Assembly: GCA_001913845.2 (NCBI GenBank) | Contig: MKGP02000067.1 | Coordinates: 1 to 64,000 of the forward strand | From: Limnothrix sp. CACIAM 69d | Lineage (GTDB): Bacteria; Cyanobacteriota; Cyanobacteriia; CACIAM-69d | DNA length: 64,000 bases | Direction: 5' to 3' | In this document: piece after piece, positions 331 through 7,317 of the stretch | How the letters are laid out: each line of letters opens with the position of its first letter | Position numbering within the stretch: position 1 is the stretch's first letter | Made by a program: the position numbers and the translations under genes | The notes under the pieces: model-generated | Database searches by the model: none | What the model saw: the letters and a program-made list of their open reading frames with translations, nothing else | What the model was told of the DNA's origin: nothing

Positions 331-711
331 ATGTATCGTCGGTGGCGAGTAACTCCCATGATGAATCTTGGCGAACTTCGTCTGAGATCGCGCATTATCG
401 GTTTGGCTCAAGAACCTGCGGCTAAGGTGGCCTTGGCCGGTGTGGCAACGGTGGTGGTTGCCCCGATTATTTTGCCTCTGTTGAAACCAGCGCTCAAGGC
501 AGGGTTGAAAACCGGGGTTGTGTTGTTTGAAAAGACAAAAGCGGCGATCGCGGAAACCGGCGAAATGATCGCGGATATTGCGGCGGAGGCCCGTGCTGAA
601 GCCCTCGCGGAGGCCCGGGTGCCGTTGGGTTTAACGGCCAGTGCGCCCGGCTCGGAGGTGACCCCGGCGTTGAACGCAACTTCGCCGGAAGAAGAACACC
701 GACTGGTCTAA
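331..711 (+). CDS. DUF5132-like small protein with one hydrophobic segment
   Basis: A protein of up to 126 residues. The N-terminal part is basic (LRLRSRIIGLA). A hydrophobic, Gly/Ala/Val/Pro-rich segment follows (residues about 33-55, containing VVVAPIILPLL), then a long Lys/Ala/Glu-rich helix (about 60-100) and a disordered acidic tail. This layout fits the DUF5132 family as I recall it, often found next to metal-transporting P-type ATPases in cyanobacteria. The gene points toward the ATPase operon. Possible starts are ATG 331, 358 and 361. None has a Shine-Dalgarno, and the -10-like box at 316-324 would place the transcript start at the first ATG, so the later ones are equally possible. 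Function is unknown; a membrane-anchored partner of the ATPase is an inference from position only. Confidence 0.6.
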   Translation: MYRRWRVTPMMNLGELRLRSRIIGLAQEPAAKVALAGVATVVVAPIILPLLKPALKAGLKTGVVLFEKTKAAIAETGEMIADIAAEARAEALAEARVPLGLTASAPGSEVTPALNATSPEEEHRLV

Positions 712-866
712 TGGGAAGGGTGAGCGATCGGGCTGGATGCGCCAGCCGATCCACTCACTGCCCAGTCCCATCCCGATGTCATCAACCAATGAGCGCCCAA
801 AAATAAACACCCAGAAGCAAACGCCTTGGTGTTCCTGCCGAGTCCGATCGAGCGGTTAACGCTCTC

Positions 867-1199
867 CTAAGCGGCGTTGTTGGTTTGTGCTGTGCCCTGA
901 ACTGAATCTTGCTGAGAAGCCCCAATTGCCATTGCGCGGTTGGGGCGTTGGTTTTGGGCTGCGGGAGCCAGGCGCAAGGTGGGAGCGGGGGCCGTTTGTT
1001 GGGCTTGGGTAATCCAATCGCTCAGGGAGATCGGGCGTTGGCGCTGGTGCAAGGATTGCAGGAGCGATCGCACCACCACGGGCCCCACCAGGACGGCCCC
1101 CAACCCCAGCAAGGCAGTCAAGTCCTGTTGACAGCCATCCTCGATCATTTCCTTGATGTGAAAGGTGACAACGGATTTATCCAGATGAATCCAAGCCAT
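867..1199 (-). CDS. Small membrane protein downstream of the P-type ATPase
   Basis: A 110-residue protein and last gene of the minus-strand metal operon, starting 95 bases after the ATPase stop. One hydrophobic segment at about residues 29-46 (ALLGLGAVLVGPVVVRSL) is followed by a Gln/Ala/Pro-rich, probably disordered tail. A second possible start is Met18, just before the hydrophobic segment. The hydrophobic part resembles that of the DUF5132-like protein at 331-711 (a small-residue helix with a Val-x-x-Pro or Gly-Pro break), so the two may be distant relatives. I know of no function. A short single-span protein coded beside a P1-type ATPase recalls the mycobacterial PacL (DUF1490) chaperones, but the resemblance is of layout, not of recognisable sequence. 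Confidence 0.55.
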   Translation of the reverse strand: MAWIHLDKSVVTFHIKEMIEDGCQQDLTALLGLGAVLVGPVVVRSLLQSLHQRQRPISLSDWITQAQQTAPAPTLRLAPAAQNQRPNRAMAIGASQQDSVQGTAQTNNAA

Positions 1200-1294
1200 G
1201 GGTCTGAAGGGGGTGAGGGGTTTGCAAATCGAGGCAGTGAAAACAGGTTGAACGGCGGGGTGAACAGGGGCGAGCGGTGGGCAGCCAGGGAAGG

Positions 1295-3577
1295 CTAGCG
1301 ATCGCGGGGCCGCTCAAAAAAGTGGTGCTGAATCAGGGGGCGCAAACTGTTGAGGCCGGCGGCGATCGCGGAGCCGTTGTGGATGGCGGTGGCGATCGGG
1401 GGGCTGAGGCCGCGAGTAGTGGCCAAGCCGAGGGCAATCAGGTTTGGTAGCACCACCAAAGCCGTGTTTTGTTCAATCAACCCTTGGGTTTGGCGGGCGA
1501 TGGTTAACACCTCCAGCAGATCCAGCAAATGGTTATTCATCAACACCACATCGGCGGTTTCGCGGGCAATTTCCGACCCCTGCTCAAAGGAAATGGACAC
1601 ATCCGCATAGGCCAGGGCCACGGAATCGTTGAGGCCATCGCCCACAAAGGCCACGGTGCGCCCCGATCGCCGCAGGTCGCGAATGATCGTGGCTTTGCGA
1701 TCGGGAAAGGCTTCCGCATAGACCCGATCAGTGGGAATTTCCAGGGCCCGAGCCACCTGGGCCGCGCGGGCAGGCGTGTCACCGGTCAGCAACCGCACAT
1801 CCAACCCCAATTCCGTTTGCAGGGTTTGCACGAGGGCGGCGCTTTCGGGCCGCAGGGGGTCGGTGTAGCGCAGTTCGCCCATGAACCGGCCGTCCACGGC
1901 CACATAGATCGAAGGCTGGGCGATCGAGGGTTGGCTGCTGGCCTGTTGATCCAGGGTGGTCAGCCATTCGCCCAAACCCGTCACACCCTGCTGAATTAAA
2001 AATCGCGCACTGCCCACCAGCACATTGCCCGCCGCCAGTTGGGCCCGCACCCCCAAGCCCACTTCGTAGTTCCATTCGCCCCGATCGCTCAGGGTCAGGC
2101 CCCGATCGGCCGCTGCCCGCACGATCGCCTCGGCCACCGGATGGGTGAGCCGTTGCTCTGCCGAAGCGGCCAGTTGCAGGAGCTGATCGGGGGTGATGTC
2201 CGGCTGGGCGGGCAACACTTGCTCTAAAACGATGTCACCCTGGGTGAGGGTGCCCGTTTTGTCGAACACCACCGTATCGATCGCCGCCAACTGTTCCAGG
2301 GTTCGTCCACTGCGCACCAACACGCCGTGACGGGTAGTGTGGTTCAAGGCTCCCAGAAACGCCGTGGGAATCGATAGCCGAATGCCGGTCACAAAGTCCA
2401 GGGTCAAAATCGCCGCCGCCCGGGCCGGATCGCGGGTGGCAATCAGCACCACCAGGGCCAAAATCAGGGCCGGGCCGATCGCCCTGTCCGCCAGCCGTTC
2501 GGCATAGTTGGCCATCCGGGTGTCATAGACCGGGGCCTGTTCCAACAGGGCCAAGCTGGCGGCGGCGCGGGTTTGGTTGCCCACCCGTTCGGCTCGCAGG
2601 TAAATTTGCCCCGATCGCACCAAGGTTGAAGCATGAACCCAACGGCCGGCACTGGCGGCCACCGGCAAGGGTTCCCCGGTCAGGCTTTTTTCATCGATCG
2701 TGGCTTCACCGGACAGCACCGGCCCATCGGCGGGAATTTGCTCACCGGGATAGACCACCACCAAATCGCCCACCTGGAGCTGGTCACTGGGAATTCGTTG
2801 GGGCGGCCCGTCGTTCATTTTCACCCAAGCAAACCGCCCGATCGCGTCGGACAGATTAGCCGTTCGCAGGGCCGTGGCCCGAGCGGTGCGATCGCGAATC
2901 GCATCCCCCAAGGCGTGCAGGGTCAAAACCATGGACGGCACCACCACGGAGCCACCGCTGCTGCTGAGGCCGATCGCCAACAGATCCATACAGTCAATGT
3001 TCAAGCGGCGATCGACCGTCACACTTTGCCAAGCCCGCTGGGCCACGGGCCAAACGGCCCGCAACAGGGCCACCGTCGCCAACACCCGCAACGGCAACAG
3101 GGGCCGCCACCGGGCCAACCCCGCCAAGGCCAAGGCCGTTAGGGTTTGGGGCAAGGAGGCTTCTTCCTCGTCCTCGTCCTCGTCCTCGTCTTCCGCCGTT
3201 TCCGCCGGGGCCCCGACCGTGGCAGGAGCTGGCAGGTCTGGGGCCGGTTGCAACAGCAGGGCCCGATCGGGCCAAGCCAGGGCCAACCAGTCATCCAAGC
3301 GCGATCGCAGGCCGGCCATCGGCAACTGGCGATCGTGATACACAATCGTCACCGAAGCGGCCGCCCGCACCACCCGCACCGCCGCCACGTCCGATCGCGC
3401 CGCCAAGGCCGTTTCCAACCGTTCCACCGCCAGGGCCGAAGACCGCGCCGGCCACCAACGCACCCGCACCCGGCCTGGCTGCCAATGGATCAATTCCCAA
3501 TGGGTCCAGGCCGCCGGTCGTTCCCAGCGCCAGGTGCGATCGTCCGTCACGGTCTGCCCCATGTTTGCCATTGCCAT
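1295..3577 (-). CDS. P1-type (heavy-metal family) cation-transporting ATPase lacking the CPC motif
   Basis: A 760-residue P-type ATPase. Residues about 25-105 look like an HMA fold without a CxxC metal site. A strongly acidic linker (Glu/Asp alternating, about 128-141) precedes the membrane helices. Catalytic motifs are intact: SLTGEP near 300 (actuator), the phosphorylated aspartate D439 in DKTGTLT, a THPVAEAI motif typical of P1B pumps, and GDGLND near 648. In the helix just before D439, where P1B pumps carry CPC, SPC or similar, this protein has SIP (402-404) and no cysteine. The transported ion therefore cannot be read from sequence. It lies 28 bases downstream of the HMA-like membrane protein gene and was probably co-transcribed with it. 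Export from the cytosol is the usual role of the family. Confidence 0.88.
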   Translation of the reverse strand: MAMANMGQTVTDDRTWRWERPAAWTHWELIHWQPGRVRVRWWPARSSALAVERLETALAARSDVAAVRVVRAAASVTIVYHDRQLPMAGLRSRLDDWLALAWPDRALLLQPAPDLPAPATVGAPAETAEDEDEDEDEEEASLPQTLTALALAGLARWRPLLPLRVLATVALLRAVWPVAQRAWQSVTVDRRLNIDCMDLLAIGLSSSGGSVVVPSMVLTLHALGDAIRDRTARATALRTANLSDAIGRFAWVKMNDGPPQRIPSDQLQVGDLVVVYPGEQIPADGPVLSGEATIDEKSLTGEPLPVAASAGRWVHASTLVRSGQIYLRAERVGNQTRAAASLALLEQAPVYDTRMANYAERLADRAIGPALILALVVLIATRDPARAAAILTLDFVTGIRLSIPTAFLGALNHTTRHGVLVRSGRTLEQLAAIDTVVFDKTGTLTQGDIVLEQVLPAQPDITPDQLLQLAASAEQRLTHPVAEAIVRAAADRGLTLSDRGEWNYEVGLGVRAQLAAGNVLVGSARFLIQQGVTGLGEWLTTLDQQASSQPSIAQPSIYVAVDGRFMGELRYTDPLRPESAALVQTLQTELGLDVRLLTGDTPARAAQVARALEIPTDRVYAEAFPDRKATIIRDLRRSGRTVAFVGDGLNDSVALAYADVSISFEQGSEIARETADVVLMNNHLLDLLEVLTIARQTQGLIEQNTALVVLPNLIALGLATTRGLSPPIATAIHNGSAIAAGLNSLRPLIQHHFFERPRDR
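3165..3188. repeat. Hexanucleotide tandem repeat (TCCTCG x4) inside the ATPase gene
   Basis: Four exact copies of TCCTCG on the + strand, with degenerate copies on both sides. On the coding strand they give alternating Glu-Asp in the linker between the HMA-like domain and the first membrane helix. A change of copy number keeps the frame, so linker length could vary between strains. Confidence 0.85.
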
Positions 3578-3605
3578 GCCCTTTTCGCTGAAATCCTGAT
3601 GGTGG

Positions 3606-4478
3606 CTAATCCTGGTTAGCGCGATTCAACACCTGCAACAATCGCAACCCCAACTCCAAATCCGAGAGGCCCGTGGAGTCGTATTGAATCGCCAAGGAAG
3701 CCGCCGCCTGATTAATCCGCGTGCCCAACACGATCGACTCATCCTTCAGCAGGGTTTCCAGCCGCTTGCCATAGGCGCGATCGGTGCGGAGGCGATCAAT
3801 CCGCAACCGAATCCGCCCCGGCACGGAATGGATGATCGTGCAATCTTCGCAACCTAAACCAATGCCCAAATTACTGCCCAGCTCAGTGAGAGAAATGGGA
3901 CTCGTTTGGGCGGAGGCTGCGGATTGGTTGCTGGGGGCCGACGTTGTGGCCACCGTGGCCAAAGCCGCCCCCGCAGTCACCATTGCCAACGTGCCCGCCG
4001 AGCTATTGGCCTGCTGTTTGAAGTACAGAATGATTTGGCGCACCACCGCCGCGATCGCCAGGTTGGTCAACAGGGCCCGTGAACCGCGCAGTTGAAACCG
4101 GGTTGTGACAAACAAGCCCGCCAGCACCGGCAAAATCGTCGTAATTTCCCCGTATTCCTGCAACCATTGCCCCAATTGGGCAGACAGGGTGAGGTTGCTT
4201 AATGCAGAGTCAGGGCCCGGCTCGATCGCACCGGATGGGGTGGATTGCGCCAACGCGCCCGTTGCTGTTTCGGCCAGATCAGAATCAGAGTTCACAGGTT
4301 GGGATTGAGGAGAGGCAGAGGAAGCATTGATCGCCAGTCGATCGGACTCGGGAGGCTGCTCCTGGAAGGCTGGGGCGATTGGAGAGACCTCAGCGGCCGA
4401 GTCCAACCCTGAATTAGCCAACGGTTGCGGCTCAGGGGTTGTGGATGGCTCGCGATCGGGGTTTGAGGAATGACTCAT
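3606..4478 (-). CDS. HMA-like domain membrane protein
   Basis: A 290-residue protein if translation starts at ATG 4478 (MSHSSNPDRE). The open frame reaches back to 4658, but those extra 60 codons look non-coding and cysteine-rich. Residues about 1-95 are low-complexity (Ser, Pro, Gln, Glu). Two or three hydrophobic stretches follow (about 115-190; for example ILPVLAGLFV and the helix before ILYFKQQ). The C-terminal 70 residues (from about 220) form an HMA_2-like fold beginning IHSVPGRIRLRI, again without a CxxC site. It is the first gene of a three-gene minus-strand unit with the P1-type ATPase. Such proteins pair with P-type ATPases in other cyanobacteria as I recall. The role, perhaps a membrane-bound accessory or ion-delivery subunit, is inferred from position. 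Confidence 0.7.
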   Translation of the reverse strand: MSHSSNPDREPSTTPEPQPLANSGLDSAAEVSPIAPAFQEQPPESDRLAINASSASPQSQPVNSDSDLAETATGALAQSTPSGAIEPGPDSALSNLTLSAQLGQWLQEYGEITTILPVLAGLFVTTRFQLRGSRALLTNLAIAAVVRQIILYFKQQANSSAGTLAMVTAGAALATVATTSAPSNQSAASAQTSPISLTELGSNLGIGLGCEDCTIIHSVPGRIRLRIDRLRTDRAYGKRLETLLKDESIVLGTRINQAAASLAIQYDSTGLSDLELGLRLLQVLNRANQD

Positions 4479-5164
4479 GGCTTTAGTTCCCCATAACAAG
4501 GATGGGGGGCACAAACAATCCCAGCCAGTGGCCCACGACCCGGCGGGACAAGCCCCCAGGAGCGCGGTGGCTTCAAGGATCTTAGGGGAAAAGCTTTTGG
4601 AGGAACAGAATTGTCCCAACTCATTAGCAGTGTAAGTGCAATAGACGGATATTTTCAATAAAATTGCTGATTTTTCTTAATAGAGTGGCATTACTCCCGG
4701 GAGGCTAATGGCCAAAATGACAGAATTTAACCCTCCATGGTTTGTTGGCAACGGGCGAAAGTTTCACTATTTTTCATACCCACCTAATCGCTGTAATTAT
4801 TGAAAATTCTGAATTTTTTGAACTTAACGGTCTCGGTTTGCACTTTTTAGATCGGCCCGGCCGCTTCCCAAATTTCAGCATAGATCAGGGCAGATCGGCC
4901 CACCCCAGCACCAGTTCTCTAGACTCTAAATCGCTCAAGAACTACAATCAGGATTATTGAGAAAGTCTTGCAGATTTCTAGTAAACTATCCTGCCACTCC
5001 TAAAATGAGAGCGACCGTCTCAGAATGCTCTCAGTCCGGGGCTGGCGTTGGCATTGGCTGCTTGCAGGTGTTTGAGCACTTGGGTTTGAGCACTTTGGGA
5101 TAGCGTCTTGAAATAGCGTCTTCAAATTACGTTGCCCGGCAAGATTGCCAGGGAGAGTTGGGTC
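4479..5164. promoter_or_regulatory. Divergent intergenic region between the metal operon and feoB
   Basis: About 690 bases between divergently transcribed metal genes, so both promoters should lie here. The middle part (about 4640-4850) is A+T-rich. Features visible are an inverted repeat TGAGAGC (5006-5012) / GCTCTCA (5027-5033) and a run of tandem direct repeats at 5071-5126. I see no match to the classical Fur box. A 72-codon plus-strand frame (4742-4960) has no domain or good start and is not called. Confidence 0.45.
5071..5126. repeat. Two adjacent tandem duplications upstream of feoB
   Basis: TTTGAGCACTTGGG (5071-5084) is repeated at once as TTTGAGCACTTTGGG (5085-5099). Then ATAGCGTCTTGAA (5100-5112) is followed by ATAGCGTCTTCAAA (5113-5126). 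The block ends 38 bases before the feoB start codon, where an operator or leader element would be expected. Slippage duplication without a role is the alternative. Confidence 0.75.
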
Positions 5165-5794
5165 ATGGATTGTCATCAGTGCCATCAAAACAACGGGAGT
5201 TGTGGGTCTAAGCGATCGCTGCGGTGGTTGCCCTTTGGCGAAAACTTCAACCGGCTCCCGATCGAACCGAGCGGGCCGCAAATTGCCCTGGTGGGAATGC
5301 CGAATGTGGGCAAATCCGTCCTATTCCATGCCCTGACTGGCACTTACGTCACGGTGTCTAACTATCCCGGCACAACGGTGGAAGTGACACGCGGGGCCAT
5401 GACTCTGGACGATCGCGCCGTCAGTGTGATTGATACGCCGGGAATGTATTCCCTGTTGCCAATTAGCGAAGAAGAACGGGTGGCCCGAGATTTGCTGATG
5501 TCGGAACCCTTTGGGGCGATCGTCCATGTGCTGGATGCCAAGAATTTAGGGCGGATGTTGGCGCTAACGGTGCAGTTGCTTGAAGCAGAGCTGCCCGTGA
5601 TTGTGGCGGTGAACATGATGGACGAAGCCCAGCGTTGGGGCCTGACCATCGATCGGGAAGCCCTAATCGAAAAGTTGGGCGTGCCGGTGGTGCTGATGGC
5701 GGCGGCCCGCAATTGGGGCGTGGATCAATTGCGAGAAACCCTGGCCGATCGCCTAGCCAGCACCCCAGCCCCAGTCTTGGCTGCGGTGGGCTAG
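5165..5794 (+). CDS. feoB: Ferrous iron transport protein B, separate GTPase domain
   Basis: A 209-residue FeoB-type G protein without the membrane part. G1 is GMPNVGKS (44-51), the switch region contains the FeoB-typical NYPGTTVE, G3 is DTPGMYSL (about 93-100), and G4 is NMMD (about 150). The start is ATG 5165, with AGGGAGAG at 5150-5157 as ribosome binding site; the frame is open to a TTG at 5132. The N-terminus carries three cysteines in 13 residues (MDCHQCHQNNGSC), which may bind a metal. The frame ends in a stop after the G domain, and the membrane part follows in a different frame 68 bases later. The pair should act together to import Fe(II) across the plasma membrane. Separate FeoB halves are, as far as I know, common in cyanobacteria, so this is probably not a recent frameshift. 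Confidence 0.9.
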   Translation: MDCHQCHQNNGSCGSKRSLRWLPFGENFNRLPIEPSGPQIALVGMPNVGKSVLFHALTGTYVTVSNYPGTTVEVTRGAMTLDDRAVSVIDTPGMYSLLPISEEERVARDLLMSEPFGAIVHVLDAKNLGRMLALTVQLLEAELPVIVAVNMMDEAQRWGLTIDREALIEKLGVPVVLMAAARNWGVDQLRETLADRLASTPAPVLAAVG

Positions 5795-5862
5795 GACATG
5801 CCCTCGCTGAACGATTGCTGAACTATCAAGGCCGCCCAGGAGCAGGCCAATAGAAAACAGAA

Positions 5863-7317
5863 ATGAGTCTAACAATCCAATATTTAGAGCCGATCGAAGT
5901 GGCGATCGCCCAAATTGAAACTTGGTGGCGATCGGGCTGGGGCCAAGACTTTGCCGATCGCCATTTGTCATCCCGCAGCTTTGCCCTGTTGTTACTGCAA
6001 AAAGACCCCAATTTGTGGGAGCAATTACCGGGCGATCGACAACAGGATCTAGAGCAATTAATCGCCACGACCCAAGCCCAACTCAACCGACCAATTTCGC
6101 TGGAAATTGCCCAAGCACGCCAAGGATTTGCCCAGGCGATCGAACAAAACACCTTAGCGGAACCGAACCCCAGCCAGCGCCGTTGGGGCGAGCGGATCCA
6201 CAAGCTAACGGTGAACCCCATTTCGGGTTTCCCCATTTTGGTGTTGGTGCTCTATTGGGGGGTTTATAAATTCGTTGGGGAATTCGGAGCCGGGGAACTG
6301 GTCGATCGAATCGAAACCTTCTTTGAGGGACAAATTAACCCCGTTGTAAACCATGTCACGGAGCAAGTGATTCCTTGGCCCGCTTTGCAGGATCTCTTTG
6401 CCCATGACTACGGGATTATTACCCTCGGAATTCGCTACGCTACGGCGATTGTGCTGCCGGTGGTGGCGACCTATTTTCTAATGTTTTCCCTGTTAGAAGA
6501 TAGCGGCTATTTGCCTCGGTTGTCCCTGATGCTCGATCGACTGTTTAAGGCGATCGGCCTCTCGGGCCGAGCCGTGATCCCGATCGTGTTGGGGCTGGGA
6601 TGCGACACCATGGCCACGATCGTTACCCGCACCCTGGAAACCAAGCGGGAACGACTGATCGCCACCTTTTTATTGTCCTTGGCCATTCCCTGTGCAGCTC
6701 AATGGGGCGTGATTTTGGGACTCCTGGCCCAGCGCCCAGCGGCCTTGGTCACCTGGGCTGGATTGATCGTGGGCATTTTCCTGCTGGCCGGCTTTTTAAT
6801 TGATAAATTTCTGCCCGGTTCTGCGGCTCAGTTTTATATTGAACTGCCCCCTCTACGCTTGCCCAAAATCCGCAATGTGATCACCAAAACTTGGGTGCGG
6901 ATGAAGTGGTATTTCTGGGAAGTATTGCCGCTGTTCATTTGGGCTTCGGCCATTATTTGGGTAGGTCGCTTAACGGGGATTTTTGATTGGCTGATTAGCG
7001 GCATTGAACCGATCGCCCTAGGTTTGGGTTTGCCCAAAGAAACCGCCCCCATTTTGCTCTATGGCTTCTTTCGGCGGGATTATGGCGCTGCGGGCTTGTT
7101 TGATTTGCAGCAGGGCGGCCAGCTCACGGGCGATCAACTGCTGATTTCGGCGGTGGTTCTGACGCTGTTTTTGCCTTGCATTGCCCAGTTGCAGATGATC
7201 ATCAAGGAGCGGGGTGTCAAAACTGCTCTGTTGATGGTGTCATTTATTTTCCCCTTCGCGTTGGCGGTTGGCTATGTTTTGAATTGGGGGCTAAATCTGT
7301 TTCATATTGCGCTCTAG
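5863..7317 (+). CDS. feoB: Ferrous iron transport protein B, membrane channel part
   Basis: A 484-residue protein matching FeoB after its G domain. Residues 1-125 resemble the helical linker (IQYLEPIEVAIAQIE and onward). From about 130 there are repeated membrane helices with two Gate/nucleoside-recognition regions. The family's conserved cysteines are present: C247 in GLGCDT, which replaces the usual GCN-x-P, and C277 in IPCAAQ, which replaces SCGAR. The gene lies between the separate GTPase and feoA, in the same direction. A likely start is ATG 5863; the ribosome binding site is weak. It should form the Fe(II) path, with the GTPase protein as regulator. The altered residues around both cysteines make it a variant of textbook FeoB. 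Confidence 0.88.
   Translation: MSLTIQYLEPIEVAIAQIETWWRSGWGQDFADRHLSSRSFALLLLQKDPNLWEQLPGDRQQDLEQLIATTQAQLNRPISLEIAQARQGFAQAIEQNTLAEPNPSQRRWGERIHKLTVNPISGFPILVLVLYWGVYKFVGEFGAGELVDRIETFFEGQINPVVNHVTEQVIPWPALQDLFAHDYGIITLGIRYATAIVLPVVATYFLMFSLLEDSGYLPRLSLMLDRLFKAIGLSGRAVIPIVLGLGCDTMATIVTRTLETKRERLIATFLLSLAIPCAAQWGVILGLLAQRPAALVTWAGLIVGIFLLAGFLIDKFLPGSAAQFYIELPPLRLPKIRNVITKTWVRMKWYFWEVLPLFIWASAIIWVGRLTGIFDWLISGIEPIALGLGLPKETAPILLYGFFRRDYGAAGLFDLQQGGQLTGDQLLISAVVLTLFLPCIAQLQMIIKERGVKTALLMVSFIFPFALAVGYVLNWGLNLFHIAL

Follow-up and report, generated by a model that had tools for sequence, protein, structure and literature searches.

A cyanobacterial gene cassette built around a putative P1B-6-type ATPase and tied to ferrous-iron uptake genes

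In P1-type metal pumps a CPC-like motif in the fourth membrane helix (M4) bears on the choice of ion, and the pump described here lacks it. We analysed a 64,000-nucleotide stretch of DNA (the window) that forms the left end of contig MKGP02000067.1 (C18 in our set) of the cyanobacterium Limnothrix sp. CACIAM 69d (genome G000). Four of its genes, encoding a P-type ATPase, a membrane partner with an HMA_2 domain and two small single-span proteins, make up one cassette that recurs across cyanobacteria and lies repeatedly beside the genes for ferrous-iron uptake (Feo). Weighing these observations together, we consider it probable that the cassette encodes a P1B-6-type pump that removes Fe(II) from the cytosol, either to the periplasm or to an internal membrane compartment, in company with uptake by FeoAB(C). 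If so, a 'heavy-metal ATPase' annotation and its three unnamed neighbours would become a testable cyanobacterial iron cassette. In the open-access literature we found no description of it, a scope that does not show it to be unpublished.

A four-gene unit and its ferrous-iron uptake neighbours

All four open reading frames (ORFs) listed in an initial annotation of the window are present, and two further ORFs encode a divided FeoB:

331..711, + strand: gene 1, DUF5132 protein of 126 aa (Pfam PF17195, 44.4 bits against a cut-off of 25; hydropathy; kept beside the ATPase)
867..1199, − strand: gene 2, 110 aa, likewise small and single-span, a diverged DUF5132 paralogue
1295..3577, − strand: gene 3, putative P1B-6-type P-type ATPase of 760 aa with an N-terminal HMA_2-like domain
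3606..4478, − strand: gene 4, HMA_2 membrane partner of 290 aa (Pfam PF19991, 32.6 bits against a cut-off of 30)
4479..5131, no strand: intergenic region between the divergent gene 4 and FeoB, part of which is retained in the cassette-less sister genome G001
5132..5794, + strand: N-terminal GTPase part of FeoB, as its own ORF (PF02421, 191.1 bits)
5863..7317, + strand: membrane part of FeoB, as its own ORF (Pfam FeoB_Cyto, Gate and FeoB_C domains)

The FeoB ORFs are divergent from gene 4. One small protein had been described on each side of the end of the pump gene; both instead lie beyond its 3′ end, gene 2 co-directional with the ATPase and gene 1 convergent with it.

In a first set of 59 relatives the close pump clade occurs in six genomes, all of which hold the four genes together (in G008 across two contig ends). 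Scanning named genomes yielded 242 confirmed sites, of which the best 80 were analysed, so that the sample is weighted towards close relatives. Two duplicates were removed (L118 of G004, L119 of G008), which left 78 loci, in 44 of which the ATPase has 4 kb or more of flank on either side. At these 44 well-flanked loci the HMA_2 gene is present in 40, a DUF5132-family gene in 40 and both in 38, while two DUF5132-family genes accompany the pump in 30. The survey of co-occurrence proposed in the initial annotation thus reveals a conserved neighbourhood, at 38 of 44 well-flanked loci, and the annotation's refuting condition, that there be none, does not hold. Cyanobacteria with the cassette include Picosynechococcus (strain PCC 7117, L101, among them), Arthrospira, Microcystis and Crocosphaera. 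In the sister species G001 a flanking gene that we read from its sequence as hemE-like and FeoB lie about 1 kb apart, and the four genes are gone except for a remnant comprising the first part of gene 4 and its upstream region; this remnant between kept flanks indicates that the four genes were lost together in one piece. In the one-contig genome G026 (L046:8157-10575) the ATPase is spread over two overlapping frames next to three intact cassette genes, and either is a pseudogene or contains a sequencing error.

FeoA lies near the cassette at 18 of the 44 well-flanked loci, FeoB at 19, FeoC at 15 and any Feo gene at 20, with recurring gene orders such as FeoA>FeoB>FeoC>HMA2>ATPase; Pfam names one FeoA and one FeoC representative. 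Among the neighbour families common to at least eight loci, there is no metal-specific family besides Feo. We additionally drew 214 genomes evenly across the phylum, not picked by neighbourhood, and accepted pump matches with E up to 1e-160. The pump was found in 23 of them and FeoB in 82, with FeoB present in 19 of 23 pump carriers versus 63 of 191 non-carriers (Fisher p 5.8e-6). In 13 of the 23 carriers FeoB and the pump are no more than 10 kb apart, versus approximately 0.15 expected under random placement, although these 13 span nine genera and are therefore not all independent. A smaller draw, the 59 relatives, gave FeoB in six of six carriers versus 15 of 53 others.

The FeoB proteins next to the pump are of three architectures: approximately 790 aa (G004, G053), 610–670 aa (G073, G093, G107, G126, G131, G212) and split (G000, G002, G154, G164, G192), so that the tie does not reflect one inherited adjacency alone. 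The window FeoB is 60–72% identical to other split FeoBs and mostly 23–46% to the rest, the exception being a 92-residue FeoB end fragment in L097 (68%). FeoB is divided between one ORF for the GTPase and another for the membrane part in the window (5132-7317), G002, L122, L134, G154, G164 and G192, and this recurrence in different genera suggests true fission of the gene and not a frameshift. A separate fusion is found at L085:279-758, where FeoC is joined to an HMA domain of the canonical, CxxC-bearing type, upstream of the HMA_2 gene of a cassette.

Metal-site motifs, class and fold of the pump and its partner

The motifs on which the following rests are located in the window as follows:

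2378..2398, − strand: M4 motif D394-F-V-T-G-I-R400 of the pump, from the CopA 3j08 alignment
2366..2374, − strand: S402-I-P404 of the pump, equal to the ATP/STP of CPCxxGLATP and not to CPC
2249..2263, − strand: DKTGT phosphorylation site of the pump, residues 439-443
1376..1381, − strand: H733-N734, the HN of the sixth transmembrane helix (TM6) and a P1B6-ATPase hallmark
3840..3851, − strand: C210-E-D-C213 of the HMA_2 partner, genus-specific

Gene 3 contains Pfam E1-E2_ATPase and Hydrolase domains and exceeds the cut-off of TIGR01525 (471.6 versus 346.25 bits), bearing out its description as a P1-type metal ATPase, and its DKTGT, TGE and GDGxND motifs are all intact. No CPC, SPC or TPC occurs anywhere in the sequence, and with C196 as the sole cysteine there is no CxxC; on both points the initial annotation was right. 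It had also placed the tripeptide SIP at the CPC position, which proved to be a misalignment. HMMER alignment with the solved CopA (3j08) sets TLD-FVT-GIRLSIPTA opposite VVA-CPC-AFGLATPTA, bringing F-V-T (residues 395-397) opposite CPC and SIP (402-404) opposite the ATP of CPCAFGLATP, and the same offset is visible in M4 of ten canonical cyanobacterial pumps. We thus rejected SIP as a metal site.

All 86 readable main ATPases (from 87 loci, L045 being a fragment without M4) carry the pattern D[FL]xTG[IVM]R. HN in TM6 was found in 78 of 84 readable relatives, 70 by pattern and eight by reading the sequence ends, where the 84 are 87 rows minus three truncated sequences and L118 duplicates L043. 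The N-terminal HMA_2 domain of the pump has invariant H31, R36 and R38, a histidine followed by a GRxR strand.

HN in TM6 is a feature of P1B6-ATPases, and the mycobacterial CtpC, which combines it with CPC, is for that reason called only 'P1B6-like' (PMC9374683, excerpt). The window pump joins a DKTGT P-type core and a P1B membrane domain to H733-N734 in TM6, and with F-V-T at the CPC place it shows these P1B6 features without CPC in TM4. Its small neighbours belong to DUF5132 and not to DUF6110, a partner said to be typical of P1B-6 pumps but not universal (PMC9374683, excerpt). On these motifs the best reading of gene 3 is a P1B-6-type ATPase. In a phylogenetic tree, one branch, with a Shimodaira–Hasegawa-like approximate likelihood-ratio (SH-aLRT) support of 94, separates the CPC, SPC and DUF1490-linked pumps from every D-motif pump, in a reconstruction with long Arcobacter, Fusobacterium and Methylobacterium branches, SH-aLRT as its only support measure and a reference set without certified P1B-6 members.

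The predicted model of the pump (mean predicted local distance difference test (pLDDT) score of 83) has the P1B fold and breaks the M4 helix at L393-D394 despite there being no proline. Its nearest P1B structures are 7qbz (Z 28.4 over 593 residues, root-mean-square deviation (rmsd) 11.8) and 7r0g (Z 27.9 over 607 residues, rmsd 6.2), with Z values too close to rank the two.

A second group of cyanobacterial pumps, 36–44% identical, joins the first in one clade (SH-aLRT 100); its M4 motifs are of the DFGTGIR type and its TM6 mostly has NN. Two relatives in this second tier, of approximately 605 aa (L059:7574-9388 and L060:7446-9266), keep LQLDFGSG in M4 and have a broken DKTGT, making them pseudo-P-type ATPases.

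Gene 4 consists of a disordered N-terminus, membrane helices at approximately 110–165 and a C-terminal HMA-like domain (213–289), which its predicted model covers at pLDDT 87–97 over 211–290 and which Foldseek matches, with weak E-values, to HMA domains including the N-domain of PacS. The partners share invariant H217, G221, R222 and R224, again a histidine and a GRxR strand. The initial annotation had called this partner free of cysteine, yet gene 4 carries C210-E-D-C213. GCEDC is confined to two of 73 partners, both members of this genus, and 42 of the 73 have no cysteine at all. In the predicted fold the motif falls where the first strand begins, away from the loop in which HMA domains carry CxxC. 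As a conserved metal site CEDC was rejected on its confinement to these two genus members. With C196 in the pump, C210 and C213 in gene 4 and C23 in gene 2, the 'cysteine-free set' is not literally true, and the arguments built on SIP and on a cysteine-free partner fall.

Two small proteins of the DUF5132 family

Genes 1 and 2 each show one hydrophobic segment, in agreement with their description as single-span proteins. Hydropathy places the transmembrane segment of gene 1 at approximately 33–51, followed by an Ala/Glu-rich helix. Gene 1 is a DUF5132 protein (PF17195) and gene 2 has no Pfam match, but larger alignments connect them: hhalign of 67 DUF5132 proteins against 58 gene-2 relatives gives a probability of 97.3% (E 2e-11), 24 ORFs at the loci match the seed hidden Markov models (HMMs) of both small families, and the gene-2 relative in L081 passes the DUF5132 cut-off at 48.3 bits. 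The view of gene 2 as an unrelated protein, drawn from a five-versus-five profile comparison (0.9%), was dropped on this evidence. ORFs were assigned by seed HMMs to their best family, an iterated HMM having drifted between the families. Genes 1 and 2 have thus diverged as paralogues within DUF5132, a family name that we found in no open-access paper searched, and the unnamed gene 2 is thereby united with DUF5132 in what may be one scaffold-like family. The relatives of gene 2 retain an N-terminal motif H5-H14-E17-E20 (H5 and H14 in 58 of 58, E17 in 57, E20 in 55), whose residues are possible oxygen/nitrogen (O/N) metal ligands.

The small proteins had been likened to mycobacterial PacL chaperones. 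The likeness holds for layout, and gene 1 has the PacL-type single transmembrane segment with a Glu/Ala segment (IAETGEMIADIAAEARAEALAEAR), which gene 2 lacks. Kinship was not found: hhalign of the 67 DUF5132 proteins against four PacL-like (DUF1490) proteins gave 7.1% over 20 columns, an alignment so short that the resemblance is one of layout only. DUF1490 has no match in gene 1 or gene 2. It has none in the whole genome G000 either, a genome-wide absence that is weak by itself because 14 control genomes likewise gave no match. Nor does either C-terminus (SPEEEHRLV in gene 1, GTAQTNNAA in gene 2) hold a metal motif like the DLHDHDH of PacL1. Homology to PacL was accordingly rejected. By analogy of layout, the proposal that the small proteins stabilise the pump is plausible.

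Candidate function, rival explanations and known systems

An ion harder than copper or zinc, in line with the hard ion that the initial annotation suggested, fits the Asp/Thr-containing M4, the HN of TM6 and both the neighbourhood of and co-occurrence with Feo. A predicted O/N site formed by M4 and TM6, together with the steady Feo neighbour, points to Fe(II) as most likely. The Asp, Thr and Arg of DFVTGIR would, with the TM6 HN, replace the thiols of CPC by O/N ligands that suit Fe(II), and the change from CPC to D-F-V-T-G-I-R would amount to a natural experiment in harder-ion binding by a P-type pump. The pump most likely works outwards from the cytosol, with the periplasm or an internal membrane compartment as the destination, such export being a property of the P1B class (PMC10654040, excerpt). 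The two HMA_2 domains, with their invariant H...GRxR strand in place of CxxC, may regulate or dock and would not bind soft metals. The DUF5132 proteins would most likely, to judge by layout, serve the pump as PacL1 serves CtpC, as scaffolds in the membrane that keep it within an assembly. The pump would work in concert with uptake by FeoAB(C) and, given a likely transcription unit shared with the uptake genes, may store iron while the cell scavenges it.

As to regulation, a search for E. coli-type Fur boxes gave nothing clear. A motif, ATTATTGAGAATAATTA, was built from FeoA upstream regions and scored against the 99th percentile of shuffles. It exceeds this threshold in 13 of 22 FeoA upstream regions, a circular count because the motif was built there, and upstream of 13 of 56 gene-2 relatives, nine of 74 HMA_2 genes, three of 64 DUF5132 genes and one of 26 FeoB genes, against 13 of 250 control ORFs passing the last threshold used. 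The box is possibly a cyanobacterial Fur site. It recurs upstream of feoA in L071, L124, L125, L130, L104 and others, and the upstream region of the window FeoB holds a below-threshold instance, ATTATTGAGAAAGTC.

Several observations weigh against an Fe(II) pump allied to Feo. The counts above take in related genomes, which are not independent. Four of the 23 carriers in the even draw (G147, G200, G228, G235) have no FeoB, and in G026, where the ATPase frame is broken, FeoB lies 1.35 Mb from the pump. NN replaces HN in six of 84 readable relatives, all Nostoc-type rows, and no DUF5132 or FeoB neighbour was seen in the second-tier group. Finally, the best ATTATTGAGAATAATTA sites of the window are below threshold, and a Fur-like box is not demonstrable at its promoter.

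A tentative extension of the same idea, which we rate as clearly improbable though not negligible, is a ferrosome-like iron store in which Fe(II) imported by Feo is pumped by a thiol-free P1B-6 ATPase into vesicles or membrane domains scaffolded by DUF5132 proteins. It fits the Feo co-location, the HMA_2 and Arg-rich strands in common with fez-like loci and the two putative dedicated scaffolds. Oxygenic phototrophs have a high iron demand, and their means of storing iron and of keeping Fe(II) harmless are important; such a store, if real, would be a second, ferritin-independent iron reserve for them.

Slightly less probable in our estimate is iron detoxification, in which surplus Fe(II) is expelled to the periplasm by a pump induced under iron excess. 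P1B-4 ferrous iron exporters carry SPC, where the window pump has FVT, with HN in TM6. P1B ATPases are export pumps and the bacterial P1B-4 pumps PfeT, PmtA and FrvA are reported to move Fe(II) (PMC10654040, excerpt), and the Feo tie is equally consistent with iron detoxification. The order FeoA>FeoB>FeoC>HMA2>ATPase and the likely shared transcription unit, however, point to expression under low iron, while an exporter of this kind is wanted at high iron. An unlikelier case is a pump for another divalent ion (Mn, Zn or Co) whose link to Feo is one of common regulation or position and nothing more. No characterised pump has a comparable M4 site, so that the ion cannot be read from sequence, and the P1B6-like CtpC exports zinc (PMC9374683, excerpt); against this, Feo genes are the only metal-specific families common to at least eight loci, and FeoBs of three architectures adjoin the pump. 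We give little credence to the cassette being no metal pump in its own right but an accessory that senses, regulates or stabilises for FeoB and uses its ATPase cycle for signalling or other cargo, since the absence of CPC and the broken DKTGT of L059 and L060, by which the family tolerates catalytic loss, are met by intact DKTGT, TGE and GDGxND in the window and by strong conservation of the M4 motif and TM6 HN.

Three known systems lie close to the cassette in layout. With CtpC–PacL1 of Mycobacterium tuberculosis (PMC9374683, excerpt) it has in common a P1B6-like pump and an adjoining single-span Glu/Ala protein, the Glu/Ala repeats of PacL1 being required for CtpC levels (same excerpt). The DUF1490-linked pumps in our set retain CPC (L152, L154), unlike the window pump, and DUF5132 has neither detectable DUF1490 homology nor the C-terminal His-rich metal motif. 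With P1B-6 plus DUF6110 systems (PMC9374683, excerpt) it shares TM6 HN, the lack of CPC, an HMA_2-like N-terminus and an adjoining small single-span gene; it differs in that the cysteine of D-x-S-C-x-x-K is a threonine in its DFVTGIR, and DUF5132 shows no profile similarity to the DUF6110 protein of the Deinococcus plasmid locus L160 (hhalign 0.2%).

The third system, compared by description only, is the ferrosome (Fez) operon, in which a P1B ATPase linked to iron is likewise accompanied by small membrane proteins. FezB is reportedly a P1B-6 ATPase, in the 2022 Nature ferrosome study. NCBIfam has no model naming fez-like loci. FezC is described as DUF4405-like (PMC10979944, excerpt), and no DUF4405 stands beside the window cassette or among the neighbour families common to at least eight loci; the DUF4405 matches of G000 sit on other contigs, C49 and C92. 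The fez genes of C. difficile are reported to be Fur-repressed (PMC12574912, excerpt).

Outside cyanobacteria, pumps with a D-x-S-C-x-x-K/R M4 and TM6 HN occur with HMA_2 and small membrane proteins in Fusobacterium (L146), Arcobacter (L147), Priestia pBM400 (L159) and Deinococcus (L160), the last, on plasmid pDEIPE02, being a DUF6110-linked pump with VDISCVLK and LHN. A fez-like operon on the Arcobacter plasmid p133_LEO_107 (L147:3099-7573) comprises HMA_2, DUF2202, small membrane proteins and a DYSCALK ATPase and adjoins ChaN and TonB-receptor genes; its DUF4405 match is weak (E 6.8e-4) and below the cut-off. The Fusobacterium record (NZ_CP084075.1), 2.1 Mb long and filed as a plasmid, is probably a mislabelled chromosome.

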